NCBI RefSeq assembly: GCF_036227605.1
Contig: NZ_CP109487.1
Span: 9,514,284 to 9,578,283 of the forward strand
Reading direction: 5' to 3'
From: Streptomyces sp. NBC_01439
Lineage (GTDB): Bacteria > Actinomycetota > Actinomycetes > Streptomycetales > Streptomycetaceae
DNA length: 64,000 bases
The notes under the pieces were generated by a model. The model had not been told where the DNA came from. It was given only the letters and a program-made list of their open reading frames with translations, and ran no database searches. Both the position numbers and the translations under genes were made by a program. Below are positions 3,535-42,480 of this stretch, in pieces. Numbering within the stretch: the stretch's first letter is position 1; every line of letters begins with the position of its first letter.

Positions 3535-5337
<1,803 letters not shown>

Positions 5338-9216: not shown

Positions 9217-9734
9217 GGGTTCAGCTGCCAGATGGACGCGTTGAGGACGGTTGCGAAGGCCACCCACAACAGGTAGGGGACGAGCAGGAGCGCAGCGGTC
9301 CGGCTCAGCCGCCGGAACAGGACAACCGTGGTGGCGAGCGCGGCCAGCAGCAGGACGATGTCCAGAAGGGCGAGCCCGAACTGCCGGGCCGCGAAGAACA
9401 GCGGGGTCCAGGCCAGATTGAGGGTGAGCTGCACCGACCACCACATGTGGGCCCGGCGCACGCGCAGACGATCCGGTTGGCGCCCGACCAGCCAGGCCGC
9501 AACCGCCATCATCCCGTACAGCACGGTCCAGACGGGCCCGAACAGCCAGGCCGGCGGGGCCCAGCCGGGCCGGACCAGCGCCGCATAGACCTCACCCGCA
9601 TCGGCGGAGGCAAGTGCTCCCAGTGCCGCGACGCCGTAACTCACGGCGAGGAAGCCCGCGAGGGCCCACCACTGCCTCGATCCGTGCGGGCGGGCCGGGG
9701 CAGGCATCGGTGCTGGTGTCGCGGAGTGTGCCAC
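9213..9734 (-). CDS. tspO: TspO/MBR family membrane protein
   Basis: 173 residues from GTG 9734-9732, with GGGAG six bases upstream; an internal ATG at 9707 would give 164. Five transmembrane helices are expected and visible: WWALAGFLAVSYGVAALGAL, the signature RPGWAPPAWLFGPVWTVLYG, MWWSVQLTLNLAWTPLFFAA, LALLDIVLLLAALATTVVLF and LLVPYLLWVAFATVLNASIW. These match the conserved W-x-P-P and tryptophan-rich cavity of TspO (porphyrin/cholesterol-binding translocator proteins). Downstream and overlapping is the broken MerR gene. Intact. TspO-type genes commonly sit with stress-response regulators. Confidence 0.93.
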   Translation of the reverse strand: MAHSATPAPMPAPARPHGSRQWWALAGFLAVSYGVAALGALASADAGEVYAALVRPGWAPPAWLFGPVWTVLYGMMAVAAWLVGRQPDRLRVRRAHMWWSVQLTLNLAWTPLFFAARQFGLALLDIVLLLAALATTVVLFRRLSRTAALLLVPYLLWVAFATVLNASIWQLNP

Positions 9735-9907
9735 GGCTGTCTCCCGGTGTACTCGATGACTTCCGACGTGCAGCGAGACCTGCGTCCGCCGCGGGCCGGC
9801 AGCTCTTCCGCGCGGACACAGCTTCGTTGCTGCCTGCCTCCTCTTCTCCTGCCGCGCCGCTGCCGGATGCGCCAGCCGGGACCGTCCGACAGCGGTGCGG
9901 TCGGGCA

Positions 9908-10150
9908 TCACCACCCCCGTGTACCCGGCGGGCCTTTGAAAGGCCCGTTGATCTCGGAAGTGATCCAGCCCCCGTAGAAGTCTCCCGGCTGCGCGACCAC
10001 CTCCTCGTCCCCGACTCGGCAGTGATCCACTCGGGACGGGTAGAAGGCAAGGAACCCGGCGATGGCGGCGAATCCGGGGGAGGGGTTCTCGTAGCTCCGC
10101 CGCCAGACGAGGTCGTACCTTCTCCTCAACCGTCCGGCGCCGACCCCCCG
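9908..10150 (-). pseudogene. 3' fragment of a DUF427-family protein
   Basis: About 75 codons (YDLVWRRSYENPSPGFAAIA, FYPSRVDHCRVGDEEVVAQP, DFYGGWITSEINGPFKGPPG) match the C-terminal half of DUF427 proteins of unknown function. The N-terminal half is absent: upstream residues in the same frame are non-homologous and basic. No credible start or ribosome-binding site; a truncated remnant. Confidence 0.75.
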
Positions 10151-10288
10151 ACCATCCGACCGCACCTCGCACCGTTCGTGCACCTTGAATCCCTCCCCGC
10201 GAGATCAGAGCTTCGCGTGGTTGGCAACGGAAGCCGTCCTGTGCCACGGCTGCCCCGCCGGCTCACCCGCCATCTTCTCGACCTCGGG

Positions 10289-10965
10289 TCAGGCCATCAG
10301 GGCGGTCAGTTGCTGAGCGGCTCGTCGGGGGCCGTGCAGGCGTACGTGCCGCCGCAGTTCTTCGACGCCGCGCCCGGGGGCGTCCAGAAGTGCGGAGACC
10401 GCCTGGCCTGCTCTCTCGGGGTCCAGCCGGTGCGGGTCGAGGCACAGGCCCGCTCCGGACCTTTCGGCGTCGTGGGCGACGGAGAACTGATCGCTGGAGA
10501 AGGGCAGCACGAGGGCGGGCACACCGGCCGCCAGGCATTCGGTGAAGGAGTTGTTGCCTCCGTGGTGGACCATGGCGTCCACCTGCCGGAGCAGTGCCTG
10601 CTGCGGTACGGTCGCGGCCAACGCGACCCGGGGGCCTGCCAGACCCGCCAGTGCCTCGGCCTGGTCCCCGGCTGCGACGATCACCGAAGTGTCGGGGCGC
10701 TCGGCGAGAATGCCGCGTGTCACCGACTCCAGCACGTCCCGCCGGGCCGAGAGGAACGTCCCCAGTGCGACCAGCACCAGACGCCGGCCGGCCTGGCGCA
10801 GGCGGCTCACTTCGGAGTTCCAGAAGGGGCCCGGGTCGAGTGTGCCGGTGGGGGTGAGGTGTCCGGTGAATACGTAGTCCGGGCCTTCGGGGCGTGGGGG
10901 CAGCCAGTTCAACCGGGGATAGTTCAGCACGACGGCGTGTGGAGAGCACAGAGTGAACGCCCGGC
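10289..10965 (-). pseudogene. 3' half of a GT1/MGT-type glycosyltransferase
   Basis: About 220 codons cover the C-terminal nucleotide-sugar-binding Rossmann domain of macrolide-type glycosyltransferases: RLVLVALGTFLSARRDVLES, SVIVAAGDQAEALAGLAGPR, the donor-binding segment LLRQVDAMVHHGGNNSFTEC, AGVPALVLPFSSDQFSVAHD. The frame stays homologous-looking up to about 10965 (AFTLCSPHAVVLNYPRLNWL), where it meets a truncated recombinase gene on the other strand. The acceptor-binding N-terminal domain (~180-200 residues) is missing. A GTG at 10930 could initiate a 213-residue protein but has no ribosome-binding site. Confidence 0.8.
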
Positions 10966-11001
10966 TCGGTACGGGTCGGTGTGGCGCGTGGCGGGCGATG
11001 A

Positions 11002-11301
11002 ACTGTCTCGCTCGTCGACCGTCTGTGGCGGAAAGCCAAGCAGAGCGCAGGCATCACAAGGAAGATCACCCCGCACTGGCTGCGCCACTTCTTCGCCTCG
11101 GCGGGACTGTCCAAGGGCGTACCGGTGACGGACATGGCCGAGTGGCTCGGGCACCGGGATCCACGCATCACCCACGAGACGTACGCGCACGTGATGCCGG
11201 ACGCCCCGGGACGGCTGAGGGCCCTGATGGATTCGGTCTTCACACGCGAGACCGAGCTGAGCCTGCCGCTCGAGTTCGAGGCCGTGGTCCAAGCGGCCTG
11301 A
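11002..11301 (+). pseudogene. C-terminal fragment of a phage-type tyrosine recombinase
   Basis: About 98 codons with the catalytic C-terminus of a tyrosine integrase: HWLRHFFAS (H-x-L-R-H box), AEWLGHRDPRITHETYAHVM with the second histidine and the nucleophilic tyrosine, ending EFEAVVQAA and TGA. A stop lies directly upstream (10999-11001) and there is no start, so the N-terminal and core domains are gone. It abuts the truncated glycosyltransferase, marking an old integration/excision scar. Confidence 0.85.
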
Positions 11302-11369
11302 CGCCCGGTGGCGCCATCGCGATGCGCCGATCCGATCCGCCCATGAATGACCGAGTTCAACGCTGCGTA

Positions 11370-11449
11370 GTCAGCACCGAACCAGCACGGGAGAGGTTGC
11401 CAGGGGTGCTGACAAGGGCTTTCGGGTCAGCACCGAACCAGCACGGGAG
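11370..11449 (+). repeat. 24-bp direct repeat, two copies 56 bp apart
   Basis: GTCAGCACCGAACCAGCACG plus GGAG occurs at 11370-11393 and again at 11426-11449, identical over 24 bp. It lies in the gap between the recombinase remnant and the symporter gene. It could be a duplicated regulatory site for the transporter or a remnant attachment-site duplication. The rest of 11302-11664 contains no gene I can support. Confidence 0.7.
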
Positions 11450-11664
11450 CCACCACGGAGGGTGCAAAACGGGCTGATCCACGCGTTTGTGGCAGGCGTC
11501 GACCGGGGGTTCCGGAATCCTTCGAGGTGTCCAAGGCGGCGATGTGGTGGTTGGGGACACAAGGTGGCGCCTGAATGTGATGTCCCGCCACATACGCTGC
11601 CGACCTGCGGGCTTCTACGGTATGGCCACACCAAACGTCCCCGCAGACCCCGGAAGTGGTGCAC

Positions 11665-13053
11665 ATGACCTCCCCCGCAACAACCGCACCATCGTCAACC
11701 GGAATCCGCCGAGTCGTCGCAGCGAGCCTGATCGGCACCACCATCGAGTGGTACGACTTCTTCCTCTACGGATCCGCCGCGGCCCTCGTTTTCAACCAGC
11801 TCTTCTTCCCCACCACCGACCCCATGGTGGGTACCCTCCTCGCGTTCCTCACCTACGCGATCGGCTTTGGCGCGCGTCCCCTGGGCGGAGTCGTCTTCGG
11901 GCACTACGGCGACAAGATCGGCCGTAAGAAGCTGCTGGTCCTCAGTCTGTTGTTGATGGGCGGCGCCACCTTCGCGATGGGCCTGCTGCCCACCCACGCC
12001 TCCATCGGCGTCGGCGCTCCGATCCTCCTCACGCTCCTCCGTCTGATCCAGGGCTTCGCGCTTGGCGGAGAATGGGGCGGCGCGGTCCTGATCGTCTCCG
12101 AGCACGGCGACGACAAGAACCGCGGCTTCTGGGCCTCCTGGCCGCAGGCCGGCGCACCGGGCGGCAACCTGCTCGCCACGGGAGTCCTCGCCCTGTTGGC
12201 CGCCTTCCAGTCGGACGAGGCATTCCTCGCCTGGGGCTGGCGCATCCCCTTCCTGCTCTCCGGGCTGCTCGTCGTCATCGGCCTGTGGATCCGCGTGTCG
12301 GTCTCCGAATCCCCGGTCTTCCTCGAAGCCCGGGCCAAGGCCGAAGCCCAGGCCGCCGTGGGCGTCAAGGAGAAGGCGCCGGTTGCCGAGGTCTTCCGCA
12401 CGAACTGGCGCGGAGTGCTCACCGCCATCGGCACCCGGCTCGGTGAGAACATCGCCTACTACATTCTCACCGCCTTCCTCCTCGTGTACGTCACCACTCA
12501 CCTCGGACTCTCCAAGAGCATCGCCCTGAACGCCGTGCTGATCGGCTCCGCGGTCCACTTCGTCACCATCCCGGCCTGGGGGGCCCTTTCCGACCGGATC
12601 GGCCGTCGATCGGTCACCCTGATCGGAGCGCTCGGCATGGCCGGTTGGGCGTTCGCCTTCTTCGCCCTGCTGGACACCAAGTCCGCCGGCGTGATCACTC
12701 TCGCGGTCACCATCGGTCTGCTCCTGCACGGCGCGATGTACGGGCCGCAGGCCGCCTTCATCTCCGAGATGTTCGACACCAAGGTCCGTTACTCCGGCGC
12801 CGCCATGGGCTCCCAGCTCGCCTCGATCATCGGAGGTGCCCTCGCCCCGATCATCGCGGTGGCGCTGCTCCATGACTACGGCTCCGCTATGCCGGTGTCG
12901 CTCTACCTGGGCGCGGCGGTCCTGATCACCGCGGTCACCGTGGTGATCGCCAAGGAGACGAGCGGCCGTAGCCTGGCCCAAGAGGACAACCCGGCCGGTA
13001 CGCTCCCCGCTCAGGAGCGCGTCAGCGGGGACCCGATCCAGACCATCGGCTGA
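11665..13053 (+). CDS. Metabolite:H+ symporter, major facilitator superfamily
   Basis: 462 residues from ATG 11665, with GGAAG eight bases upstream; an in-frame GTG at 11656 lacks a site. Twelve hydrophobic helices are expected for this MHS (ProP/ShiA-like) family. Diagnostic segments: TTIEWYDFFLYGSAAALVFN in helix 1, ARPLGGVVFGHYGDKIGRKK (the G-x-x-x-D-R/K-x-G-R loop 2-3 motif), LIQGFALGGEWGGAVLIVSE, and GALSDRIGRRSVTLIGALG (its repeat in loop 8-9). Probable substrates are small organic acids, betaines or aromatic acids; not decidable here. It is followed by a GAF/PucR regulator in the same orientation 154 bases downstream. Confidence 0.93.
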   Translation: MTSPATTAPSSTGIRRVVAASLIGTTIEWYDFFLYGSAAALVFNQLFFPTTDPMVGTLLAFLTYAIGFGARPLGGVVFGHYGDKIGRKKLLVLSLLLMGGATFAMGLLPTHASIGVGAPILLTLLRLIQGFALGGEWGGAVLIVSEHGDDKNRGFWASWPQAGAPGGNLLATGVLALLAAFQSDEAFLAWGWRIPFLLSGLLVVIGLWIRVSVSESPVFLEARAKAEAQAAVGVKEKAPVAEVFRTNWRGVLTAIGTRLGENIAYYILTAFLLVYVTTHLGLSKSIALNAVLIGSAVHFVTIPAWGALSDRIGRRSVTLIGALGMAGWAFAFFALLDTKSAGVITLAVTIGLLLHGAMYGPQAAFISEMFDTKVRYSGAAMGSQLASIIGGALAPIIAVALLHDYGSAMPVSLYLGAAVLITAVTVVIAKETSGRSLAQEDNPAGTLPAQERVSGDPIQTIG

Positions 13054-27677: not shown

Positions 27678-27958
27678 TCAGACGGCGGGTTCGAAGGTGA
27701 TCCGGGCGTTGGGGCAGCCGGCCGCGTACCGCAGGAGCGCCTCGCGTTCGGCGGGGTCGACGGCGAGGCCCCAGCGGTGCTTGGTGGTGACCCATTCGCC
27801 GAGGTAGCGGCAGTGGACCGCGGGCATCGGCGTCCAGGTGGCCGGGGCCTGGTCGGACTTCTGACGATTGGAGCGGACGGTGACGCCGACGAGGGTGACG
27901 TCCGAGCCCAAGTCGTTGGCGTAGCGGCGCCGGCGTTCGGTGGTCCAGCCGTACCCGC
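27678..27958 (-). pseudogene. 3' half of a secreted HNH (DUF1524-type) nuclease gene, remnant 1
   Basis: Minus-strand codons: GYGWTTERRRRYANDLGSDV, TLVGVTVRSNRQKSDQAPAT, VHCRYLGEWVTTKHRWGLAV, AEREALLRYAAGC, then TGA. This is the C-terminal half of small exported nucleases whose N-terminal half carries the D-I-D-H-M-V-P-L-x-E catalytic motif; that half is absent. The 5' edge of the remnant abuts the conserved boundary sequence at 27959-27997. A possible internal start at 27911 has no support. Confidence 0.8.
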
Positions 27959-27997
27959 CACTTGGCGGGGAGCGCCATTCGAGACGTGCGGCATTCC
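27959..27997 (-). repeat. Conserved boundary element, copy 1
   Basis: Read on the minus strand from 27997: GGAATGCCGCACGTCTCGAA then TGGCGCTCCCCGCCA, running directly into the HNH 3' half. One of five copies of a ~38-bp sequence whose consensus begins GGAATRCCGCAYGGTTCGAA. Confidence 0.75.
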
Positions 27998-28022
27998 AGA
28001 TCCCGCGTCACTGTGCACCCCG

Positions 28023-28505
28023 TCAGGGGCTAGCCGCTTCCTTCGGATCACCGCTGCGATTCTCCTCGGCCAAGGCGAGGGCGGCCTCGCGCATGACGGC
28101 AACTGTTCCCGTGAGCCAGCGGCCGACAGCGGCCAGTTCGGACTCGTCGAGGCCTTGCACCACTTCGGCCATCCCCGCCGTCATCGGGGCCATGGCCGCA
28201 CCCAGGACGCGGCGGTGCGCGGCTGTGGCGGTCAGGGTGAACCGGCGGCGGTCGCCGGGATCCCTGGCGCGTTCGACGTATCCGAGCGCGGCCAGCCGGT
28301 CGATGATCTTGGTGATGGCAGCGTTGCTGAGGCCGGTTTCACCCACGAGCCGACCGGGAGTGGTGCCGGGAGTGCGGGCGATGATGCCGAGCACCTTGTG
28401 CTCGGTGGCGTTGACGTGCAGGCGGGCCGCGAGCTGCTCGTGGTAGAGCACCACCCACAGGCTGAGCTCGTGGCCCAGCGCGGCGCCGTCCCGTTCGGTA
28501 CTCAT
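28023..28505 (-). CDS. MarR-family transcriptional regulator
   Basis: 160 residues from ATG 28505-28503. Winged-helix features: HELSLWVVLYHEQLAARLHV, ATEHKVLGIIARTPGTTPGR, the recognition helix region TGLSNAAITKIIDRLAALGY, and the wing VERARDPGDRRRFTLTATAA with the conserved D-x-R-[SR] motif. C-terminal dimerisation helices follow. It is transcribed divergently from a membrane-protein gene (28585), and the 79-bp gap holds a striking nested palindrome, almost certainly its operator. So it probably represses itself and the neighbour. Intact; the inducing ligand is unknown. Confidence 0.93.
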   Translation of the reverse strand: MSTERDGAALGHELSLWVVLYHEQLAARLHVNATEHKVLGIIARTPGTTPGRLVGETGLSNAAITKIIDRLAALGYVERARDPGDRRRFTLTATAAHRRVLGAAMAPMTAGMAEVVQGLDESELAAVGRWLTGTVAVMREAALALAEENRSGDPKEAASP

Positions 28506-28523
28506 GCCGGCCAGCGTACAAGT

Positions 28524-28564
28524 CTTTCACTTTGGTGAAAAAAACTACTTCACCAAAGTGAAAG
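28524..28564. promoter_or_regulatory. Nested palindromic MarR operator
   Basis: Two 16-bp arms, CTTTCACTTTGGTGAA (28524-28539) and its exact reverse complement (28549-28564), separated by 9 bp. Each arm is itself a dyad (TTCAC-NNNN-GTGAA), so this is a pair of operator half-units arranged as a larger palindrome. It is located 19 bp upstream of the marR start and 20 bp upstream of the divergent gene. Confidence 0.88.
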
Positions 28565-28584
28565 GATGTGATGGGATCAGCCGC

Positions 28585-29145
28585 ATGACCACCCCCCTGG
28601 TACCGACCCGCTCGCGCCCGCATCGCCTCGGTCCGCCCTCGGCCGCGCTGCTCGGCCGCGTGTACCTCGCCGCCCTCATCACCCACCTGCCGATCCTGGC
28701 GGTGCTCCTTGCGCCCCAGGGCCGCAGCCGGGTCAGCTCGGAAAGCACGGCGGGACTGCTGAACGCACTCCTCGTCGGGCTCGTCATCGCAGCCGTGGTC
28801 CTGGTGCCAGTGGTCTGCGCCCGGGTCGCCCCGGCAGGCCCGCGGTGGCAGCCCGGGACCGCGCTCGCCGGAGTCCGGTCCCTGATCCGTACTGACCGAC
28901 GGGCCTGGCTGCGGCGCCTGGGGGAGTTGACCGTCCTCTACATCGCCGCCCAGCTCCTGGGCGGGCTCGTTGCCCAGTTCCTTCCGTACATTTGGGAGAA
29001 CCCCCTGTACGGCAGCGAGCCGGGGGCGGCGCAGTGGGAGTTCCACTACGTCAACTTCGCTCTCCAGGGTGTCGTCATCTACGTGGCGGTGTGCGCGGCG
29101 ACCGCGTGGTACGCCTGCCGGTTGCGGCAGCTGCTGGAGGTCTGA
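28585..29145 (+). CDS. Four-helix membrane protein controlled by MarR (unknown function)
   Basis: 186 residues from ATG 28585 (an upstream frame runs through the operator and is rejected). Predicted membrane helices: VYLAALITHLPILAVLLAPQ, ALLVGLVIAAVVLVPVVCAR, LTVLYIAAQLLGGLVAQFLP and FALQGVVIYVAVCAATAWYA. The loop before the last helix contains YIWENPLYGSEPGAAQWEFH. I do not recognise the family. Divergent arrangement with a MarR regulator and a shared operator suggests ligand-inducible expression, for example a small permease or stress-protection membrane protein. Confidence 0.75.
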   Translation: MTTPLVPTRSRPHRLGPPSAALLGRVYLAALITHLPILAVLLAPQGRSRVSSESTAGLLNALLVGLVIAAVVLVPVVCARVAPAGPRWQPGTALAGVRSLIRTDRRAWLRRLGELTVLYIAAQLLGGLVAQFLPYIWENPLYGSEPGAAQWEFHYVNFALQGVVIYVAVCAATAWYACRLRQLLEV

Positions 29146-29381
29146 TCGGCAGCACATCGGCCTTGGGCCTGGTGACCTGTTCGCCATCCCAGAACGCCAT
29201 GTTCCACGCCGAACCTTCGCGCACCAGACGCCGGCGCGCCCTTACCGACGGGCCTCCACACCCCGGGCCCTGATTCAGTCGTCAGGCAAGTCCGCCAGGC
29301 CGTGCCGGCTATTATCCGCCCCGTCGGGCCGATTCGGCAGATCTACACTGAGCTGCGAGAACGCTGAGGGGGAACAGGACC

Positions 29382-30680
29382 ATGGGCGTGAGTACGGGTG
29401 TGGGTACGAGCAATGCTGTGGACGGCGAGTCCGCCCTGATCTCCGCGGTCCAGGCCGGGGACACGGACCTGGTGAGGATCCTTCTCCATGAGAACAGCGA
29501 CTCCGACTGCGTGGACGCCGCGTTCTGCTTGGCGGTCCGGATGCACGCCGGGCACATCGCCCAACTGCTGCTCCAGTACGGTGCGGATTCGGGCCGGAGC
29601 GGGCCCGAGGATCTGATCCCTTTGCGTGAGGCGGTCGACTCGGGTTCGCCCGCTCTGTTCGAGGCGCTCCTGGACCACAGGATCCGGGGCAGGTATCCCG
29701 AATCTGAACTCCTGGAGGCGCGGGACCTCGCCCGCCGCTGGCACGAGACGGGGGTCGAGGCCGAACTGAGGCGCCGCACCGGTTCCCGGGATACCGTCGT
29801 CCGTAGGCAGGTGCAAGACGACGAGTACAACAGGGTCGACGAGTGCACCCTTGGTGGCACGACCGTGCGGGACGGCCACGGGGCGATCCTCACGTACGTC
29901 GAGGACCTGCTCGGGGTCCGGACGTCGTTCGAGGATCTGATGGATCGCGCGTTGACCATCGCCGACCAGAACCACCCGACATGGGGCGGGGTCACCCTCC
30001 TGCTGGCCGGCCGACGCGACCAGGCGACCTGGACAGCTGCCGCAGCGCTGCGCACGAACCCGGACCCGTCCCGCCGGTTGTTCGGTGCCGAGGTGCTCCG
30101 GGTTACCCATCTGCTCGACCCCAGCGACGAGGACGCGTTCGCTGGTCCCGCTCTGAACATGTTTACCGAATGGTCGGCCGAGGAGACGGACCTCGCCGTG
30201 CTCACCGAGGTGCTGGTCGCTCTTGGGGAGCACATCGACCCCCGCGCGGAGGTGGCCCTTTTGCCTCACGCCGGCCATTCTGATGCCGGGGTGCGGCGTG
30301 CGGTCGCGCAGGGGTTCAGCGAGTGGTCCTCGCCGCCGGCTTTTTCCGGCGATGCTCGCACGGCGTTGCTGCGGCTGATGACCGATCCGGACGCGGTGGT
30401 ACGGAAGACCGCATGCTGCGTGGTTGCCGAGGGCAGGGACCACGATCCCAACTTCGCGGACGCCATGGCTGCTGTGCTGGACGACACGAACCGTCTGGTC
30501 CGGCTGGCCGCCGTCTACGGGCTTGCCCTCCACGACGATGAACGGTGTGTGGAAGCAGCACGCCTTCTCGGCCCGCCGCAGCGCGGTTCCCTGGAAGAAG
30601 AGGGCTACCTCGAAGCGGTGTGGCGTTACGAATGGCGTCGCGACGACCGCTGGACATCCCCGCCTGTGCCTGTCAGCTGA
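29382..30680 (+). CDS. Ankyrin + HEAT-repeat protein
   Basis: 432 residues from ATG 29382, preceded by GAGGGGGAACAGGACC. Residues ~17-115 form ankyrin-type repeats (ALISAVQAGDTDLVRILLHE, AFCLAVRMHAGHIAQLLLQY, PLREAVDSGSPALFEALLDH). Residues ~210-425 form HEAT-like repeats (HSDAGVRRAVAQGFSEW, RTALLRLMTDPDAVVRKTAC, MAAVLDDTNRLVRLAAVYGL). No enzymatic domain: a protein-interaction scaffold. Repeat proteins of this build often appear as stand-alone accessory or immunity-like genes. The stop lies ten bases before boundary copy 2. Confidence 0.85.
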   Translation: MGVSTGVGTSNAVDGESALISAVQAGDTDLVRILLHENSDSDCVDAAFCLAVRMHAGHIAQLLLQYGADSGRSGPEDLIPLREAVDSGSPALFEALLDHRIRGRYPESELLEARDLARRWHETGVEAELRRRTGSRDTVVRRQVQDDEYNRVDECTLGGTTVRDGHGAILTYVEDLLGVRTSFEDLMDRALTIADQNHPTWGGVTLLLAGRRDQATWTAAAALRTNPDPSRRLFGAEVLRVTHLLDPSDEDAFAGPALNMFTEWSAEETDLAVLTEVLVALGEHIDPRAEVALLPHAGHSDAGVRRAVAQGFSEWSSPPAFSGDARTALLRLMTDPDAVVRKTACCVVAEGRDHDPNFADAMAAVLDDTNRLVRLAAVYGLALHDDERCVEAARLLGPPQRGSLEEEGYLEAVWRYEWRRDDRWTSPPVPVS

Positions 30681-30690
30681 TCCAGAGCCG

Positions 30691-30727
30691 GGAATACCGC
30701 ACGGTTCGAATGACGCTCCCCGCCAGC
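30691..30727 (+). repeat. Conserved boundary element, copy 2
   Basis: GGAATACCGCACGGTTCGAA then TGACGCTCCCCGCCAGC. Unlike the other four copies it is not followed by HNH nuclease sequence but by a short gap and the end of the TPR gene, showing that the boundary is separable from the nuclease gene. Confidence 0.8.
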
Positions 30728-30745
30728 TTTGCGTGCGGCGTTGCC

Positions 30746-30771
30746 GACGGGCCCTAAAGCTGCGGCCCGTC
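30746..30771. terminator. Hairpin between convergent genes
   Basis: Perfect 8-bp stem GACGGGCC / GGCCCGTC with a 10-nt loop, no T-tract. It lies between the ankyrin/HEAT gene (plus) and the TPR gene (minus) and overlaps the stop of the latter, consistent with a bidirectional terminator. Confidence 0.55.
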
Positions 30772-32139
30772 GATGGAATCGGCCTCCGTACTGTTGGGAG
30801 TGCTCCAGCGCCGTCGAGCGTGCTCCCGCTGGGCGGCGGCACTGGGGATGGCAGCGATGGCATCGATGGGGCGGTTCTGCCTGATCAGCAGCTTGGCGAG
30901 GTCTGTGGCTGCCGTGAGTCCTGGATGGGTGCGGAGCAGCTCCATTGCTTCGTCTGATCTGCCGTCCTGTGCCAGCAGCGAGGCGATGGTGATGTCCCGC
31001 TCGTCGGCATACAGGTCGGGATCCGCTGCGACCTCCGCGATGGCTTCGCGGCATCGCCCGGTTTCTCCCATCAACCACCATCGAGTGGACGGCACCCAGT
31101 ACGTCTCTTCGAGGAAGTCCTGGCTGCACTCATCCAGGAGTCGCAATGCCCGTTCCTGGAGGCCGTTCTCGGCGAGCATGCGCACCGCGACATACAGGAG
31201 GCCCTCCCAAGGGTCCTCGAAGGTGGGGCGTACTACCTCGACGGCCTCGTCAATTCGGTCCTGTCCGGCTAGCAGATCCATGAGGAGGGACTGGCAGCTA
31301 CCCGGGTAGTCGGTGGCGGCGATGAGTTCGCGCAACAAGGTCTCGGCCTCGCCCGTCCGTCCTGCGTCCTGGAGCGCCCCCACCAGGGGACGCAGTGCCT
31401 CGCGTGCATGGCCACCAGTGGTGACTGCTCGGTGCAGCTCCTCTATCCGTCCGTGCCGGGCGAGGAGCCCCACGTAGGTCTCGACCGTGTTCTGGGGTCC
31501 GTACCGGCGGGCGGCCACGTCGGTGCCGAGGACGCTGATCGCCTCGTCGACCCGCCCTGATCTCTCCAAGACCTCGGCCTGCAAGTCCAAGGTTTCCCAG
31601 TGCCTGTGCGATCCGCCTTGGGTTTGCACGCGTCTGGCCTCCTGCGCGAGCGGGACAAGCAGCGCCAGGACTCGGTCGTCCCTACCCTGCCCTTCGGTCA
31701 TCTCTACGAGAGACCGTGGTATCCGACCGTCCGACAGGTGAGGTTCGAGGACCGTGATCGCCTCGTCCACACACCCGGTCTTCACCAGGACTTCGGCGTA
31801 GGCACGGCACGCCTCGACTGCCTGCCACGCCGTTTCGTCCGGGCGCACCAAGGCCAGTGCCTCATCGATCCGGCCCCACCGGACCAAGATGTCGGCACCC
31901 GCTGAAAGAGCAGGCAGCCAGCCGGAATCCGCGAACGGCTTCATCACGGCCCAGGCCCGTTCGAATTCTTCTGTGGTACAGAGCTCACGTGCCGCGCCTC
32001 GTGCGCAGAACCAGTCCCCGCGCCTGTCGGCGGCCTCCACCACGAGATCCAGGTGCCCACCTTCCACGAGGAGGTCCACCACTTGTGGTGGGACTCCACC
32101 CCAGTTGTCTGCTTGCCACTGAAGATCTTCAACGTTCAC
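30754..32139 (-). CDS. TPR-repeat protein
   Basis: 461 residues from GTG 32139-32137. Successive ~34-residue helical repeats with the G-R-x-D-E-A-x-x-x-L pattern: ILVRWGRIDEALALVRPDET, YAEVLVKTGCVDEAITVLEP, AEVLERSGRVDEAISVLGTD, LLARHGRIEELHRAVTTGGH, ALQDAGRTGEAETLLRELIA, LLAGQDRIDEAVEVVRPTFE, LLAQDGRSDEAMELLRTHPG. No catalytic domain; a scaffold-like all-helical protein. Streptomyces genomes carry scattered relatives, often in strain-specific regions. Intact. Boundary copies 2 and 3 bracket the gene. Confidence 0.85.
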   Translation of the reverse strand: MNVEDLQWQADNWGGVPPQVVDLLVEGGHLDLVVEAADRRGDWFCARGAARELCTTEEFERAWAVMKPFADSGWLPALSAGADILVRWGRIDEALALVRPDETAWQAVEACRAYAEVLVKTGCVDEAITVLEPHLSDGRIPRSLVEMTEGQGRDDRVLALLVPLAQEARRVQTQGGSHRHWETLDLQAEVLERSGRVDEAISVLGTDVAARRYGPQNTVETYVGLLARHGRIEELHRAVTTGGHAREALRPLVGALQDAGRTGEAETLLRELIAATDYPGSCQSLLMDLLAGQDRIDEAVEVVRPTFEDPWEGLLYVAVRMLAENGLQERALRLLDECSQDFLEETYWVPSTRWWLMGETGRCREAIAEVAADPDLYADERDITIASLLAQDGRSDEAMELLRTHPGLTAATDLAKLLIRQNRPIDAIAAIPSAAAQREHARRRWSTPNSTEADSIDGPQL

Positions 32140-32271
32140 GGGGACAGCTTAGAAACCACCGCCGACATGACGGTTTTGAGCCGGGGTGCAGGGGTGGGCG
32201 CCGAGGTCGATCGTGAGCTGGTCTGTGCGGCAGAGAGGCGAGGCTGGGGCCTCTCTCCGGTCGAGGCGCGT

Positions 32272-32310
32272 GGAATGCCGCATGGTTCGAATGACGCTCT
32301 CCGCCAGCTG
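32272..32310 (+). repeat. Conserved boundary element, copy 3
   Basis: GGAATGCCGCATGGTTCGAA then TGACGCTCTCCGCCAGCTG, followed directly by the HNH nuclease 3' half. It lies 132 bases from the 5' end of the TPR gene. Confidence 0.8.
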
Positions 32311-32622
32311 GGGCGTTCGGGTGGACGGCGGCGCGTCGTGCGGCGCGGCGTGAGGCATACGCGAATGACCAAGGTCAGCTCTCCTCGCTGGTCGCGGTGA
32401 CGGCTCGTTCGAACCGGTTGGAGGCGGACCGAGACTTGGCGGAGTGGCTGCCGCCGGCGCCGGATGCGCTGTGTCGGTACGGCGCGGAGTGGATCGCGAT
32501 CAAGCTCTGCTGGGGCCTCGCGGTCGACGAGGCCGAGCGGGACCGGCTGCTGGACATCGCGGCCTGCTGCGGCGGCACGGATGTGGAGTTCACCCCCGCC
32601 CCGTGGGTCGAGGGCCGGTGCA
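32311..32622 (+). pseudogene. 3' half of HNH (DUF1524-type) nuclease gene, remnant 2
   Basis: Codons after the boundary: FGWTAARRAARREAYANDQG, LSSLVAVTARSNRLEADRDL, EWLPPAPDALCRYGAEWIAI, CWGLAVDEAERDRLLDIAAC and DVEFTPAP. The native stop after APAP is lost (read-through to TGG GTC). The 5' half with the catalytic motif is absent. Very similar to remnant 3. Confidence 0.8.
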
Positions 32623-32675
32623 GGAGGGGCCGCTACCACGTCAGGCGTGGCTTCGCGGTGGCGGCCCCACTACGG

Positions 32676-34862
32676 TCAGGAGGTGGCTTGGGAGGCCTGC
32701 GTACGCGTCAGGATGGACCGGCAGGTGCGCTGGATTTCCAGGTCGACGGCGATGCTCCATCCCCAGGGGTCTCCTCCGCGGCGGGGCTGTGCGAGTGCGG
32801 ATTGGACCTGGGGGAGGGCGGGGTGTGCTGCCTGGCCCATGCGGTTGAGGCAGGCGACGGCATGGCGTGCGGTGAAGTCGTTGTCCTTCCAAGCGGCCAG
32901 CAGCGCCGGCACGACGGCGGGGGCTTCGTCGTCCCCGCCGATGTCCCAGAGGGCTGACGCCATATGGACCAGGGTCCAGGAGTCGTTCAGCACGGCGGAA
33001 CCGGCCTGCTCGTTGCGTGCGTTCTGTTCGAGTTGGTCGTTCAGTATCTGGCGCAGGCGGGGCAGTACGGCCGCGGCGGGAGGGCCGATCCGTCCAGCAA
33101 GGTTGACCGCGTCGAAGTTCCGCTCGTCGTTGAGGAGGCATTGCAGCAGCGGAACGACCTGCTCGGGTCGGCGTTCAAGTTCCCAGATGGTGTTGGTTGC
33201 GGCCGTGCGGGTTCTCTGGTCTTCCGCCTCGGTCAGGGGGCGGACGATCTCGAGGGCGGTGATGGCGCGGGTGCCGAACGATGCGAGCGCCTTCAGGATG
33301 GGCGCGGCCGTGTGCCACTGCCCTCGCTGGACGGCGGCCTTGAGGGCGTCGGTGAGCGCGGGCACGGCGGCCGGGTCGCCGAGTGCGGCAAGCGCCGACG
33401 CGAGCGAGGTGGGACTGACATCGGGCCATTCACGGGAGTGGTCGATGTCGGCGAGGAGGCGGATGAGCCGGGGCGTGAGTTCCGCGGCGGCCTGGGGCAG
33501 CCGGCCGGCCGCGTTCACGGCCCGCCAGGCGTCGATACCGGTGTCGAGCGCGGTCAGCAGCCCGGGCAGGGCTCGCTCGTCTCCGAGCTCGGCGAGTGCC
33601 AGGGTCGCCTGCTGGTGGGCGCGGCGCAGTTCGGCGTGTGGGCTCGCCCAGGCATCGGGTCTATGTGTGGTGCGGTGGGTGGCGACGTAGGCGGCGAGGG
33701 CTTCCCGGGCCGGTTCGGCAAGCTGGCCCAAGGCCCCGAGCACCTCGGCCGCAGCTGCTGACGTGTAGGAGTCGCGCGGCAGCAGGCACGCGGCGAGGAG
33801 TCGTACCAGGGGAACATGGTCTCCTCGCCAGGAGATGATCAGTGTGCGTGCCATGTCGATCGCGTCGTACCGGGTGGCCGCATCCAGGCTGCGCAGCTGC
33901 TCGCAGAGCAACGCGGTCCGGTCCTCGACACGCCCGTCGAGGACCTCGTGGAAGGACACCAGCAGGGACGTCGTGGGCGCATGGACCCGGCCGTGGCGGT
34001 CCAGGTCGGCGAAGGCGGCAGCAACGTGCCCAGGAACACCAGGGTCGGGCTCGGTCTCAAGAGCACACGTGCACGGCCCCGTCGGCCCCGGGCTCTCGTC
34101 TGGCTCCTTGCTCTCCTCGGGCAGGGATATCGGCGCGATCCGGCGGAGGAGCGCGATCGCGGTGGGCACCGTGGTGGCATCGATGGACTCGGGGATGCAG
34201 CGGGCCCGCTGGACGAGCGCCGCAAGACGGACATCGGCATCCACCGTCAAGCCGTCGGCGAGGAGATCGAACCATGCCCGCGCTGGTTTCTGAGCCGCCG
34301 GGAGCCGCAGCGCCAGATCGCCCATCGTCCGGATCACCAGCAGCCGCTCCATGACGCCGTCCTCGGCGTCGAGCCGAGCCCGAAGGACTCCTACCGCCCG
34401 CTCGGCGTCGTTCAGGAACAGCCCCAGCCCCACGATCGCGGCCGAACGCACCCGCGCGTCCGTATCGCAGGCGTAGCCGACGAACACCTCGCCGCGCCCA
34501 CGTATCAGGGCTGCGGCGTCCTGGTAGGCCGTGCTTTCCTCACCGTCGATGCCGATCCATACACCGCCGACCTCGTCCCGATCGACGGCCTCACGGCCGA
34601 TGCTCACGATCAGCGCGACCACCGACGCCCGATCAGGCGTGGAAGGGCTGTCGGCCATGTCGAACAAAAACGGCAGACTGGCCACCGTGCACGGATACAC
34701 GTCCCCCTGATGGTGGGCCGCGCCGTAGAAGCTCCTGAACGCCTTCTCCCGGACCTCGTCGCAGGACGAAGCCATGTCGCGCAGCCATTGCGGAACATCA
34801 CTGGCCGGCCCGTAGGCGTGCCCCAGGGACGCCCAGTCGATGCTCTCCAAGTCGTTGATCAT
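32676..34862 (-). CDS. Large HEAT-repeat protein
   Basis: 728 residues from ATG 34862-34860 (MINDLESIDWASLGHAYGPA). The longer upstream frame is the complement of an HNH remnant and is not used. N-terminal segment VPQWLRDMASSCDEVREKAF, SFYGAAHHQGDVYPCTVASL, then many HEAT repeats (VRSAAIVGLGLFLNDAERAV, AAEVLGALGQLAEPAREALA, ATLALAELGDERALPGLLTA, LASALAALGDPAAVPALTDA, RTRTAATNTIWELERRPEQV). No enzymatic residues recognised. The start motif with S-x-x-x-H-Q-G-x-x-Y-x-A is typical of Streptomyces HEAT proteins of unknown role, sometimes near toxin genes. Intact, flanked by boundary copies 3 and 4. Confidence 0.85.
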   Translation of the reverse strand: MINDLESIDWASLGHAYGPASDVPQWLRDMASSCDEVREKAFRSFYGAAHHQGDVYPCTVASLPFLFDMADSPSTPDRASVVALIVSIGREAVDRDEVGGVWIGIDGEESTAYQDAAALIRGRGEVFVGYACDTDARVRSAAIVGLGLFLNDAERAVGVLRARLDAEDGVMERLLVIRTMGDLALRLPAAQKPARAWFDLLADGLTVDADVRLAALVQRARCIPESIDATTVPTAIALLRRIAPISLPEESKEPDESPGPTGPCTCALETEPDPGVPGHVAAAFADLDRHGRVHAPTTSLLVSFHEVLDGRVEDRTALLCEQLRSLDAATRYDAIDMARTLIISWRGDHVPLVRLLAACLLPRDSYTSAAAAEVLGALGQLAEPAREALAAYVATHRTTHRPDAWASPHAELRRAHQQATLALAELGDERALPGLLTALDTGIDAWRAVNAAGRLPQAAAELTPRLIRLLADIDHSREWPDVSPTSLASALAALGDPAAVPALTDALKAAVQRGQWHTAAPILKALASFGTRAITALEIVRPLTEAEDQRTRTAATNTIWELERRPEQVVPLLQCLLNDERNFDAVNLAGRIGPPAAAVLPRLRQILNDQLEQNARNEQAGSAVLNDSWTLVHMASALWDIGGDDEAPAVVPALLAAWKDNDFTARHAVACLNRMGQAAHPALPQVQSALAQPRRGGDPWGWSIAVDLEIQRTCRSILTRTQASQATS

Positions 34863-34955
34863 GCCCGGCACTATGCCGCGCAGCACTGACACGCTCGACA
34901 GCAAGCGCTGGGCCCCCCGATCCTGACCGCCAGCGCTGTTGCCGCTGAGGCATCT

Positions 34956-34993
34956 GCAATACCGCTCATTTGGAATGACGCGCCCTGCCGGCT
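34956..34993 (+). repeat. Conserved boundary element, copy 4 (degenerate)
   Basis: GCAATACCGCTCATTTGGAA then TGACGCGCCCTGCCGGCT: recognisably the same element, with several substitutions. It lies 94 bases from the 5' end of the HEAT gene and runs into HNH remnant 3. Confidence 0.65.
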
Positions 34994-35278
34994 GGGGCTT
35001 CGGCGTGGACGGCGGCGCGGCGGGAGGCGTACGCGAACGACCAGGGACAGCCGGCTTCCCGGGTCGCGGTGACGGCCTGCTCGAACCGGTCGAAGGCGGA
35101 CCAGGATCCGGCGGAGTGGCTGCCGCCGTCCGCGGACGCGCTGTGCCGGTACGGCGCCGAGTGGACGGCAACGAAACTCCGTTGGGGCCTCGCGGTCGAC
35201 GAGGCCGAGCGTGACCGGCTGCTCGACATCGCGGCCGGCTGCGGTGGCACGGACGTGGAGTTCACCCCCGCCCCGTAG
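34994..35278 (+). pseudogene. 3' half of HNH (DUF1524-type) nuclease gene, remnant 3
   Basis: Codons ASAWTAARREAYANDQGQPA, SRVAVTACSNRSKADQDPAE, WLPPSADALCRYGAEWTATK, WGLAVDEAERDRLLDIAAGC, DVEFTPAP then TAG 35276-35278. This is the best preserved C-terminal half and keeps its own stop and the terminator behind it. The 5' half is missing at exactly the same codon as in the other remnants. Confidence 0.85.
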
Positions 35279-36596: not shown

Positions 36597-37392
36597 GCAG
36601 TTGTGACAAGCCGCCTGCCTCGTCGGTGACAACCATGCTGCTTCGTTCGGTCCCATTTCGCCACGTCATCCGGCTCTGCCGGTGACAGCTACTGAGGTTC
36701 GGCTCAGGTGGGCTGTGGGGGGTGGGCGCCGCCGGGTTTGAGTGTGTCAGTGCCAGGCGCTGCTCGGACCTGGAGTGCAATAGTTCCTGCGGGGAGCGGC
36801 CTTCGGGCGGGCTGATCTTCGCCCCGTTGCGCTGCCGGCTGCGGGCAGGACCCGGCTGCCGTCACACGTCGCTGGTTCCCGTCCCCGGTCGGCAGCATCT
36901 AGCCGGGACGCGGCCGACCAAGCCGCCGTGAGGCGACCGCCCTTTCCTCCTTACGCTTTGACCGCCTTGCCCGCCACCCCCTCCGGTCTGGGCGCGGCCC
37001 CGACCCGGCCTTTCCCCCGGCCGGTCGGGGCCCTTGTGCTCTTCCGTGCGGCAGCAGCGTTACTCCCGCGTAGCCGCGGCGGTCAGGTCGGCGGAGTGGG
37101 AGGCGCTTCGCCAAGCCGTACGGCGGCTCATTGCCTCGTTCGGGGGAATCGGGCTGTGGTGGCCAAGCTGGTGGGCGGACTGCGGCGAAGAGGGCGTGTG
37201 CGGGGATGCCGGAAGGTCCTGTTCCCGCGCCGGCCGTGTGGGGTCTCCGCGTGGCCGAGGCACCTTGGGCGCGAGCAGCGACGGGAAATGGCCGGTGGCC
37301 CCGCCCCCCCTGAGTGGGCCAGGCCACCGGCCTGTCCGGCTACACCACCGACCGGTGATGTCCTCCTGCCGGGCCCGGCAGGAGGCTGGGCG
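36597..37392. other. Gene-poor stretch, nothing recognised
   Basis: About 800 bases with long but compositionally shadow-like open frames on both strands; no domain, ribosome-binding site or repeat that I can support. Confidence 0.4.
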
Positions 37393-37520
37393 CTACTTCT
37401 GGTTGATGGGCAGGGCCAGGTCGGTGACCTGGTACCGGGTCGGGAAGGCGCCCTTGTCGGTTGCTTTGCCGGTCAGGACATCGACCGCGTAAAGACAGTA
37501 GGTGCCGGTCGTGCCGGTCG
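37393..37520 (-). pseudogene. C-terminal fragment of an unidentified exported protein
   Basis: About 40 codons, TGTYCLYAVDVLTGKATDKG and AFPTRYQVTDLALPINQK then TAG. The natural composition and clean ending suggest a real protein tail. Upstream it is cut at ~37520 where the radical-SAM fragment begins on the other strand. Family not recognised. Confidence 0.5.
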
Positions 37521-37535
37521 TGCCGATCGCGGCGA

Positions 37536-38258
37536 ACCCGCGGTTCACCCTGGTGGCCGCCTACCGCTACGCACACCGGCTCGGCATGGTCGTGGAACTC
37601 CTCTCCAACGGCTCCCGGCTGTGGCGCGAGCCCACCATGAACCTCCTCACCACCTACCTCCCGGCGAAGCTCACCCTGTCCGTGTACGGTGCCAGCGCCG
37701 AGACGTACGACGGCTTCACCCGCCGCCGCGGCGGCTTCAGGAAGTTCACCCGCGGCCTCGACAACGCCGTAGCGGCCGGGCTGAACCGGGAACTCAGCCT
37801 GATCATCACCCGCCGCAACGCCCACGAGCAGCACGCCATGCGGGCATGGGCCGACCGGCTCGGCCTGCCCTGGCGCGAGTACGCCAACAATGTCGCCGAC
37901 CATCCACGACGGCGCCGAAACGCTGCTCACGCAGTCTCACGAACACCTCACCCAGCGGGCCCCATTCACCGGGTGCCGGGCCGGTCACACCTTCTCCCAC
38001 GCGGACCCCCACGGCCGCGCCTCCATCTGCAAGGTAGGCCGCGATCCGTACGTGGACCTGGACGCCGAAGGCGTCGAAGGTCTGGCCCGACTCGGCGCCA
38101 TCGCCGATTCCCTCATGCTTCGCACCGGAGGATGCTCAGGCTGCACATTCTCCGGCTCGTGCCGGGTGTGCCGCCCGATGTCGCGCATCTTCCAGGAGGC
38201 GAAGGCACCACTGGTCAACTACTGCCAGCACGGCCAACCGAAGGAGATCACCCGATGA
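37536..38258 (+). pseudogene. Radical SAM/SPASM maturase, 5'-truncated and frameshifted
   Basis: The fragment starts at PRFTLVAAYRYAHRLGMVVE, LLSNGSRLWREPTMNLLTTY, PAKLTLSVYGASAETYDGFT, RRGGFRKFTRGLDNAVAAGL: the middle of a radical-SAM barrel. The cluster-binding C-x-x-x-C-x-x-C at the N-terminus is missing. Near 37890 the frame shifts by one base into MSPTIHDGAETLLTQSHEHL, followed by a SPASM-type domain with FTGCRAGHTF, ASICKVGRDP and GGCSGCTFSGSCRVCRP, ending KEITR-TGA. The stop overlaps the downstream peptide gene by ATGA, the arrangement expected of a RiPP maturase with its precursor. Confidence 0.82.
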
Positions 38259-41108: not shown

Positions 41109-41148
41109 CCAGCTGGCGGGGAGCGACATTCGAACCGTGCGGTATTCC
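41109..41148 (-). repeat. Conserved boundary element, copy 5
   Basis: Minus strand from 41148: GGAATACCGCACGGTTCGAA then TGTCGCTCCCCGCCAGCTGG. The end forms a perfect 14-bp palindrome CCGCCAGCTGGCGG extending into the HNH side. This copy closes the ~1-kb segment that carries the GNAT gene. Confidence 0.8.
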
Positions 41149-41355
41149 TGGCGGGCCCGGTGGCTGTGGAGTGCGAACAGACCTCTCGATCGGTGGGACA
41201 GCGGGCCGGGCAGCGATGCTCTGAGGGCGTGAGGGCCCGCAGCTGACGTCATCGACTCCGCGAGGTGACGCGGAGGTGTTCCGCAGGCTGGTCATTGAAG
41301 CCCTGAGGCTGTGTCGGGTGATGCGCAGACCGACTTGATGTGGAGGGTTGAACGC

Positions 41356-41871
41356 TCACACCCGAGTCTGCAGTACCTGGCCCGGCCAGATCGCACCGTC
41401 CGACCGCAGCACCTCGAACTCCAGCGTCGCGGTGAAGCCCAACTCCTCGTACTCGCGCACCAAGCGGCTGTCCTCGCCGACCCAGCAGTGCGTCCGAAGC
41501 AGCCGTGCGCCGCGTCGGGCTGCTTCGGCCCGGGCATCGGTGACAAGGGCCGCCATGCTGAGCTGTCGGCGCCACATCCTGGTCACCAGAAATTGCAGGT
41601 AGAGCTCTGGGACGTCGACCGGCGGAGCAAACTCCGGGGCCTCGTCAGCCAGCACCGAAGCACCCATGAATCGGTTCAGAAGGTCCCGGCAGATCCTTGT
41701 CCGTCCGGCCCGCGCGTGGCCCAGTACCTGCCTGACGATCAGCGGGGGATCCTCCCGCTCCAGCGCCTCGTACAGGTGGGGGTGCCGGTGCAGAACCAGC
41801 CAGGAGTCGTAGTCGTGGAGCACCCCCAGGAACTCACCCACCTCGGCAAGCCCGCCTGCAGTAACCCTCAT
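41356..41871 (-). CDS. GNAT-family acetyltransferase-like protein within a split HNH gene
   Basis: 171 residues from ATG 41871-41869 (a TTG three codons upstream is less likely). GNAT features: ELYLQFLVTRMWRRQLSMAA (beta4-alpha3; the pyrophosphate-binding Q/R-x-x-G-x-G/A is degenerate), LVTDARAEAARRGARLLRTH (alpha3/beta5), VREYEELGFTATLEFEV (alpha4-G-F motif). The acetyl-CoA loop is atypical, so activity is uncertain. The gene lies on the same strand as, and between, the 5' half (42139-42480) and 3' piece (41036-41108) of an HNH nuclease gene, so it appears to be cargo of the inserted segment. Confidence 0.75.
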   Translation of the reverse strand: MRVTAGGLAEVGEFLGVLHDYDSWLVLHRHPHLYEALEREDPPLIVRQVLGHARAGRTRICRDLLNRFMGASVLADEAPEFAPPVDVPELYLQFLVTRMWRRQLSMAALVTDARAEAARRGARLLRTHCWVGEDSRLVREYEELGFTATLEFEVLRSDGAIWPGQVLQTRV

Positions 41872-42138
41872 GTCGCTCAAGCGCTCGCCCCCCGGAAGCG
41901 TCTAAACAGCAGTCGCTGATCATCGTACGGCCGAGGAACGGCGCGCCTCGGGGCGCTGTCCGGCACATCGACGACATCGCACCCGGGTTGCATCCAATGC
42001 AACATCGTGGCGTCGCAGGAGAATCACCCGAGGCAGAAGACCCCAGCGGCACCCAAAGCGGCTGCAGCCTGGCGCGCCGACCAGGTCAGGGCCCTCAGAA
42101 TGCCGAGCGGAATCGCTCAGCCTATACAACTCCGCCTA

Positions 42139-42480
42139 CTTGGAGTCGTGGACTTCGGCGAGCGGGACCATGTGGTCGATGTCGACGCTGGAGGCGCCCT
42201 GGACAAGGGCGTCGTCGTAGTAGGAGTGCCACACCCCTCCGGTCAGGGCGCAGTTGGCCCCGACGGTCGGGGCTTCGATTGCTTCGGCAATGAGGACGTT
42301 GTTGCGGGCGGTGCAGCCGTGCTTGTCGTCGGGTACAGCTCCCGCTTGTAGCCCTCGCGGATCTCGTTTGCGACCGGCAGCGCGGTGATCCCGTCCATGA
42401 GCGTGACCTCGTCGGCCTGTGTGGAGGAGGCGGGTGCGAGGGCGGCGGCCATGAGGCCCCGGCGCAAGTTCTTGATTATG
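42139..42480 (-). pseudogene. 5' half of secreted HNH nuclease gene
   Basis: Starts near 42480 with a signal-peptide-like region (RRGLMAAALAPASSTQADEV), continues TLMDGITALPVANEIREGYK, has a one-base deletion near 42345, then DDKHGCTARNNVLIAEAIEA, GANCALTGGVWHSYYDDALV and the catalytic VDIDHMVPLAEVHDS. The sequence stops being homologous exactly after D-S, the point where the 3' halves elsewhere begin. Intact relatives are small exported nucleases with the D-I-D-H-M-V-P-L motif. Confidence 0.82.

Follow-up and report, generated by a model that had tools for sequence, protein, structure and literature searches.

The terminal 64 kb of the single 9.58-Mb contig of Streptomyces sp. NBC_01439 (hereinafter, the window) contain five copies of a 37-bp repeat, four of which (27997-, 32272+, 34956+ and 41148-, with the strand indicated) run into the 3' half of an HNH (GmrSD_C) endonuclease gene at the same codon; no HNH sequence is found behind the copy at 30691. 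All five copies are present where the original prediction, made from the sequence alone, had placed them, and the junctions with four HNH 3' halves as well as the palindromic end that it had pointed out (palindrome CCGCCAGCTGGCGG, which is the junction at 41112) are readily identifiable. With a probability of roughly 0.93, judging from sequence comparisons, the repeat is predicted to be the right end (RE) of a family of cargo-carrying, site-specific Streptomyces transposons that insert at one codon junction of HNH genes. As part of this explanation, the four copies other than the one at 41112 are very likely decayed elements that retain the cargo side, the RE and, in three cases, the HNH 3' half. 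The relevant features of the window are given below (LE, left end; ORF, open reading frame; aa, amino acids; TR2, the third of the recombination genes described further on; L and G numbers denote compared loci and genomes).

27678..27962, minus strand: HNH 3' half including the stop codon
27961..27997, minus strand: RE joined to an HNH 3' half
28023..28505, minus strand: MarR gene, on the cargo side of the RE at 27961
28504..29145, plus strand: gene labelled membrane in the original prediction, on the cargo side of the RE at 27961, no Pfam match
29228..30727, plus strand: last bases of TR2, cargo and RE, 87% identical to positions 3558-5054 of the L039 element
29382..30680, plus strand: ankyrin-HEAT cargo gene, 432 aa (Pfam)
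30691..30727, plus strand: RE of the ankyrin-HEAT element, no HNH sequence after it
30754..32139, minus strand: TPR gene, 461 aa (Pfam)
32272..32308, plus strand: RE joined to an HNH 3' half
32310..32603, plus strand: HNH 3' half
32676..34862, minus strand: HEAT-repeat gene beside the RE at 34956 (HEAT_2, 1.4e-12, scored on a longer ORF; the program-made ORF reaches 35171, and the start at 34862 was chosen by the analyst)
34956..34992, plus strand: RE, the most degenerate copy, joined to an HNH 3' half
34994..35278, plus strand: HNH 3' half including the stop codon
41045..41111, minus strand: HNH 3' fragment, GGHGWTTERRRRYANGLGSDVT and then out of register
41112..41148, minus strand: RE of the window element
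41112..42141, minus strand: complete element without recombinase genes, 1,030 bp from LE to RE, inside an HNH gene (flanking HNH halves and both ends identified)
41356..41880, minus strand: cargo ORF of the window element, 174 aa, 96% identical to the L076 protein
42107..42141, minus strand: LE of the window element, AAGTAGGCGGAGTTGTATAGGCTGAGCGATTCCGC
42142..42401, minus strand: HNH (GmrSD_C) 5' half ending ..DIDHMVPLAEVHDS and split near 42330 into two pieces in different reading frames (75% and 79% identity by tblastn)

A chance origin of the repeat is ruled out by the four matches to its 20-base core (at most 3 mismatches) in the window, whereas 100 shuffles gave 0.03 matches on average and never more than one; the more degenerate copy at 34956 is not among these four. 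In the entire host genome, all four matches to a 21-base core (at most 3 mismatches) are located within the window, less than about 36 kb from the right end of the contig, and the reversed pattern used as a control yielded no matches. Between two groups of RE copies, there is an ORF of 369 aa (36928-38037, plus strand) with no Pfam match.

Altogether, 43 RE copies were collected, 41 of them distinct, over which the conserved block spans 37 bp and starts sharply at GGAAT: the 23 columns before this motif contain at most 0.5 bit each, and the first 12 columns of the block at least 1.4 bit, with a drop to 1.0 and 0.4 bit in columns 13 and 14. The sample is subject to selection bias: a 22-base pattern served to pick loci L027-L049, and most of L074-L083 come from BLAST searches with the RE or with HNH plus LE. 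The unselected evidence consists of bases 23-37 of L027-L049 and six copies reached through TR2 (L066-L071). By tblastn, with L068 added manually, the RE continues into HNH sequence at the same codon in 35 of the 41 copies, and in L034 and L041, HNH-like codons directly follow the RE before the sequences diverge.

In other strains, an HNH 5' half is present upstream of the repeat and ends at the same point, ..LDIDHMVPLAEAWDS, followed by AAG TAG GCG GAG TTG or a close variant. The repeat thus appears to be the RE of an insertion, and AAGTAGGCGG.. its left end; in complete elements, the matching LE begins AAGTAGGCGGAGTTG.. and places an in-frame stop codon (AAG TAG) directly after the HNH 5' half, the RE abutting the 3' half. 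The predicted target lies between the S and G codons of the conserved EAWDS-GASxW motif, or its equivalent, of HNH (GmrSD_C) genes. Intact HNH genes read GACTCC-GGAGCC (L066), GACTCC-GAGCGG (L071) and GATTCC-GGGGCG (L083) at this point, with nothing in between, and the respective proteins match GmrSD_C (PF07510) above its cut-off. The possibility, raised along with the original prediction, that the 37 bp are ordinary HNH coding sequence is accordingly rejected. In one exceptional locus (L045), the HNH 5' half stops earlier and meets the RE without any LE, an arrangement that is read as a probable deletion.

The two ends share several sequence features. The RE contains a pair of similar boxes, GGAATACCGC and CGAATGACGC, at a distance of 16 bp, and the main variant of the LE contains a similar box in inverted orientation (GCATCATTCC); at both ends, an arm of the type AG(TA/CT)GGCGG is located next to the junction (direct reading). 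There are two end variants, and the same one is found in the recombinase-bearing L067 and in the deletion forms L074 and L075, of which L075 matches positions 1-282 of L067 joined to 5003-5137 at about 97.5%.

Complete elements, from LE to RE within an HNH gene, were identified in 15 cases and range from 0.4 to about 19.7 kb (lengths counted to CCGCCAG(C/T)). Thirteen of these are tabulated (window, 1,030 bp; L035, 3,617 bp; L039, 5,054 bp; L040, 5,862 bp; L066, 8,760 bp; L067, 5,137 bp; L069, 4,593 bp; L070, 4,625 bp; L071, 8,232 bp; L074, 461 bp; L075, 415 bp; L076, 1,028 bp; L077, 3,515 bp); the other two are L068 (about 5.08 kb, RE read by eye) and the largest one seen, in G019 (G019:C1:7946867-7966543, about 19.7 kb, examined as two stretches with 2 kb between them unread), where the HNH halves on both sides belong to the same subtype (..VYDS / EPTPWS..). 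Locus L078, with an LE in an HNH 5' half and no RE in the stretch examined, is left out of this count. The gene order is LE, a tyrosine recombinase gene (TR1, ~374 aa), a small HTH gene (~111 aa), TR2 (~650 aa), variable cargo and RE. All three recombination genes are present in nine of the 15 complete elements (L035, L039, where TR1 is frameshifted, L066-L071 and G019), and six (window, L040, L074-L077) lack this set, with only the start of TR1 left in L040, L074, L075 and L077. Conversely, the incomplete loci L031, L034, L081, L082 and L083 retain parts of TR2, up to its 3' end. In L035, the TR2 stop codon is located inside the RE. The original prediction had suggested insertion elements that use HNH genes as attachment sites, to be recognized by matching left ends and a recombinase in intact copies; the LE in all 15 elements, the recombination genes in nine, the variable cargo and the HNH frame that is recovered when the flanks are joined (see below) bear out this suggestion.

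The cargo is diverse. Ankyrin-HEAT genes are found in the window, L031, L036, L037, L039 and L047, directly before the RE, and in part in L049; TPR genes in the window, L067 and L032/L038 (one locus); and HEAT genes in L033 and L081. The window TPR protein is 51.6% identical to the TPR cargo of the complete element L067 and is encoded on the opposite strand relative to the RE. The 174-aa cargo ORF of the window element yielded no Pfam match, and its relative in L076 is annotated as a GNAT family N-acetyltransferase. The protein encoded in L069, L070 and L082 (241-263 aa) matches zinc ribbons weakly, below the cut-off; L068 encodes a DUF6461 protein and L077 an Lgt protein. In L066, on an S. 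virginiae plasmid (NZ_CP108865), the cargo at 8109-12993 is a conflict-type module in which an intact HNH gene is accompanied by a Trypco2 protein and a trypsin-nSTAND-TPR protein of 1,244 aa. A second, uninterrupted HNH gene is carried as cargo by four of the 15 complete elements, namely L066 and L071 (open frames) and G019 and L040 (contiguous tblastn halves), and is located directly behind TR2 in three of these; the one in G019 lies next to TR2. A search for defence genes with PADLOC gave one weak match among 10 proteins.

Among the recombination proteins, TR1 is a tyrosine recombinase (PF00589, 8.3e-15) whose HxxR..H..Y motif aligns with that of XerA; R197, H308, R311, H334 and Y343 are invariant in all 11 aligned recombinases (seven TR1 from HNH elements, two TR1 from relatives and two extra integrases of relatives). 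The small middle protein belongs to HTH_26. TR2 (~650-680 aa in the HNH family, 702 and 806 aa in relatives) contains a long array of CxxC pairs (zinc-ribbon) and a tail that looks recombinase-like by eye. W632 and a DWxxY motif are invariant in 10 TR2 rows, eight of them from HNH elements, and the tryptophan is read where the catalytic tyrosine would be expected. TR2 gave no PF00589 match and a match to XerD with an E-value of 0.59; some public records annotate its relatives as integrase or XerD.

Several lines of evidence suggest that the elements have inserted into already existing HNH genes. With the element left out, the HNH reading frame continues across the junction in all 13 elements tested; one base (T or C) following CCGCCAG(C/T) was omitted from the join, a choice valid for every one of them. 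Some of the interrupted HNH genes (window, L035, L075 and L077) are decayed elsewhere in their length. The window element is 95.6% identical over 1,026 aligned bases to the one in L076, on an S. goshikiensis plasmid (NZ_CP108579), whereas the HNH flanks are only 70.4% and 68.0% identical, which argues that the same element entered two different HNH genes. Similarly, L074 and L075 are 92.5% identical, with flanks at 75.6% and 83.2%, and in L030 and L042, the 1,300 bp before the RE and the RE itself (95.6% and 94.6%) are followed by HNH 3' halves that are 65.9% identical. In five ankyrin-HEAT pairs among L031, L036, L037 and L039, the cargo identities (94.9, 90.9, 90.2, 81.2 and 81.8%) compare with 75.1, 79.2, 72.5, 70.9 and 79.9% for the HNH 3' halves; the first values are those for the sequence upstream and the HNH 3' half of L031 and L039.

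In the mechanism that these observations bring to mind, TR1, probably helped by HTH and TR2, would recognize the ends, that is, the imperfect inverted arms AG(TA/CT)GGCGG together with inner boxes like GGAATACCGC. The element would be cut out, probably as a circle in which the RE (..CCGCCAGC) is joined to the LE (AAGTAGGCGG..), and would then integrate into a fresh HNH site without target duplication. Forms devoid of recombinases, such as the one whole short element of the window (41112..42141), could move when the proteins come from elsewhere. A more far-reaching scheme is rather unlikely but can be formulated: the family would carry its own landing site, the cargo HNH gene providing a fresh target at each insertion, so that elements could nest and build up arrays on plasmids and close to the ends of Streptomyces chromosomes; cargo of the conflict type (ankyrin-HEAT, TPR, trypco2/nSTAND) would be exchanged at the gap between TR2 and RE, and TR2 would be a relative of recombinases that lost the nucleophile and turned into a zinc-ribbon site selector.

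Certain observations do not sit easily with the interpretation of the repeat as a transposon end. Four of the 41 RE copies (window 30727, L033, L047 and L081) have no HNH sequence behind them. A 16-base LE pattern with one mismatch gave eight matches in the host genome compared with 16 for the reversed control, only the one in the window being exact (a stricter LE pattern matched in 2 of 295 genomes), and the LE motif alone is therefore unspecific; the LE assignments rest on the adjoining HNH 5' half. Comparison of the TR2 and TR1 profiles gave an hhalign probability of 0.3%, so that any recombinase kinship of TR2 is tentative. L074 and L075 might be deletions made after insertion, and the L031/L037 pair shows no contrast (81.8% vs 79.9%). 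The HNH flanks of L069, L070 and L071 are 84-93% alike, matching their elements or exceeding their ends, and hence give no sign of independent insertion in these copies. Finally, neither TR2 (E<=1e-5, in a search that does recover it from other genomes) nor TR1 (E<=1e-20, in a search without a positive control) was matched in the host genome, so that present mobility cannot be shown here.

The most serious competitor of the transposon interpretation, although itself highly improbable, is that the cargo gene plus the 37 bp form an integron-like mobile cassette, with the 37 bp as a recombination site that lets cassettes stack before an HNH 3' half. Several strains share the same gene immediately ahead of the RE (ankyrin-HEAT in the six loci named above, HEAT in L033 and L081), which would fit such units, as would one spot in the window, where the RE ending at 30727, the TPR gene and the RE ending at 32308 resemble a cassette array with two stacked cassettes. 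Stacking, however, was seen in this place only (plasmid records with multiple RE places were not inspected in this respect), and complete units possess a separate LE, with nine of the 15 holding three recombination genes. Each complete element has one RE rather than one after each gene; in L039, TR2 and the ankyrin-HEAT cargo belong to one element with no RE between them; and TR1 scores far below the cut-off of the integron integrase model (42.9 of 265 bits). The term gene cassettes in the original prediction is a loose fit, the cargo sitting between the TR2 and RE of a transposon.

Still less probable is a decayed duplication, whereby one HNH gene gained the 37 bp once and homologous recombination spread the block of 37 bp and HNH 3' half. 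Subtelomeric regions recombine often, and several copies have no left end in the stretch read; yet the HNH 3' halves differ behind a nearly identical upstream sequence and RE (65.9% vs 95.6%), indicating that the block was not inherited as one, and left ends sit in separate HNH 5' halves. The least probable reading takes the 37 bp for a regulatory or structural site (a terminator or RNA element) at the ends of unrelated genes, to which the HNH junction would be secondary. The position of the RE just after cargo genes and the TR2 stop codon within the RE of L035 are compatible with this, but not the entry into HNH at the same codon in 35 of 41 copies or the 15 elements in which RE and LE form a pair within one HNH gene.

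Among 295 congeneric genomes, 17 contained a pattern match (at most 2 mismatches; none in the reversed control), of which 16 were counted as RE-positive: two matches devoid of the rest of the element (L008 and L023) were treated as chance, and G278, which has only a match of this kind, was dropped. An exact pattern scan of genome contigs gave seven named loci. Of 72,556 plasmid records, 33, all from Streptomyces, matched a 44-base RE query at E 0.05, with 37 RE places in total; no match at this E-value was found in 50,697 phage records, which provides no indication of a phage origin, and two scans of viral contigs with TR2 queries, in which the RE itself was not included, yielded no confirmed relative. 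TR2 matches with at least 60% identity are present in seven of 16 RE-positive genomes (nearly full length in G019, G071 and G135, fragments in G039, G098, G173 and G227) vs none of 16 RE-negative ones, with weaker matches in both; these 32 genomes were chosen by handle, the negatives being low-numbered handles rather than a random draw. Other HNH C-terminal matches in the host genome are located at 123022-123219, 416647-416907, 774855-775019 and 6493724-6493999; the gene at 416647 reads full length and uninterrupted, and those near 123 and 775 kb appear to be degraded fragments.

Relatives of TR2 occur on plasmids of several genera: of 245 matching records, 113 are from Streptomyces, 57 from Rhodococcus, 19 from Arthrobacter and the remainder from other genera. 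The relatives L072, L073 and L096-L100 have no HNH match in the stretches examined, and other branches therefore appear to use targets other than HNH; L072 and L073 encode one integrase more than the HNH-family elements. On Rhodococcus plasmids (L073, L098, L099 and L100), the relative is a five-gene unit consisting of an extra integrase, TR1, HTH, TR2 and one more ORF, and two plasmids of R. rhodochrous LH-B3 share a ~6.0-kb version of this unit at 94% identity, with flanks that differ. In Mycolicibacterium chubuense pMYCCH.01 (L097, 2276-8107), a related TR1-HTH-TR2 operon is located beside ThiF and multiubiquitin-domain genes.

Tn554 has its recombinase genes on one side with passenger genes behind, targets radC and inserts without target duplication; actinobacterial transposons related to it were reportedly outlined in 2012 by Van Houdt and colleagues. 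The recombinase layout described here matches this class, such that the statement of the original prediction that no named system has this signature is only partly right. In the part of the 2012 paper available (PMC3414803), the class is characterized by adjacent genes for a short (~350 aa) and an abnormally long (611-828 aa) tyrosine recombinase, accompanied by a third, TnpC-related gene in most couples of two of three family pairs, and is found on plasmids and chromosomes of Streptomyces, Rhodococcus, Mycobacterium, Arthrobacter and others. Likewise, TR1 (~374 aa) adjoins TR2 (~650-680 aa) in the HNH family, with the ~111-aa HTH_26 gene between them. The TR2 search recovered the same genera as the table in PMC3414803, although none of the accessions in the available part of that table is among the matches listed. 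A potential catalytic motif is reported for the long protein (PMC3414803), whereas in TR2 a tryptophan is read where the catalytic tyrosine is expected; and the HNH target, both ends, cargo and short forms are mapped here, whereas ends, target and passengers were not found in the available part of that paper. Tn554 itself, from Staphylococcus aureus, has a unique integration site and requires three gene products for transposition (cited in PMC3414803). The HNH family shares the unique attachment site (EAWDS-GASxW or equivalent in 15 elements, the flanks adding up to an HNH frame in 13 of 13) and differs, as far as descriptions go, in the target and the order TR1-HTH-TR2.

Among other systems, the GInts (Bardaji et al. 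2017, PMC5385486, available in part) encode three integrases and GinD, for which low identity to TnpC is noted, and are flanked by 10-11 nt imperfect direct repeats. The similarity includes a recombinase operon at one end, cargo starting from the last operon gene, a short 3' end and site-specific insertion (PMC5385486), but the elements described here encode one Pfam-recognizable integrase, the HTH protein and a zinc-ribbon partner, and no GInt-like direct repeats were noticed in reading the junctions of the 13 tabulated elements, without a dedicated repeat search. RIT elements also consist of three overlapping genes, all for tyrosine recombinases (PMC3414803), as opposed to an HTH_26 gene in the middle and a third gene that is not a Pfam-recognizable recombinase. 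A TnpA subgroup related to Tn554 is mentioned in the available part of a 2021 paper (PMC8138268), and a Rhodococcus circular element annotated without a recombinase (PMC12169178) was set aside. In the open-licence literature, no paper on HNH-targeting elements was found.

Taken together, precise predicted ends, a precise target and a recognizable cargo space can be assigned to a poorly described class of actinobacterial transposons, which would allow direct testing of transposition. Cargo genes can be located with the help of the 37-bp tag, and ankyrin-HEAT, TPR and trypco2-nSTAND are among those with a resemblance to conflict or defence genes; the link to defence is a lead only. The activity of these elements would account for some of the broken HNH endonuclease genes and, in part, for gene turnover at this chromosome end and on Streptomyces plasmids.

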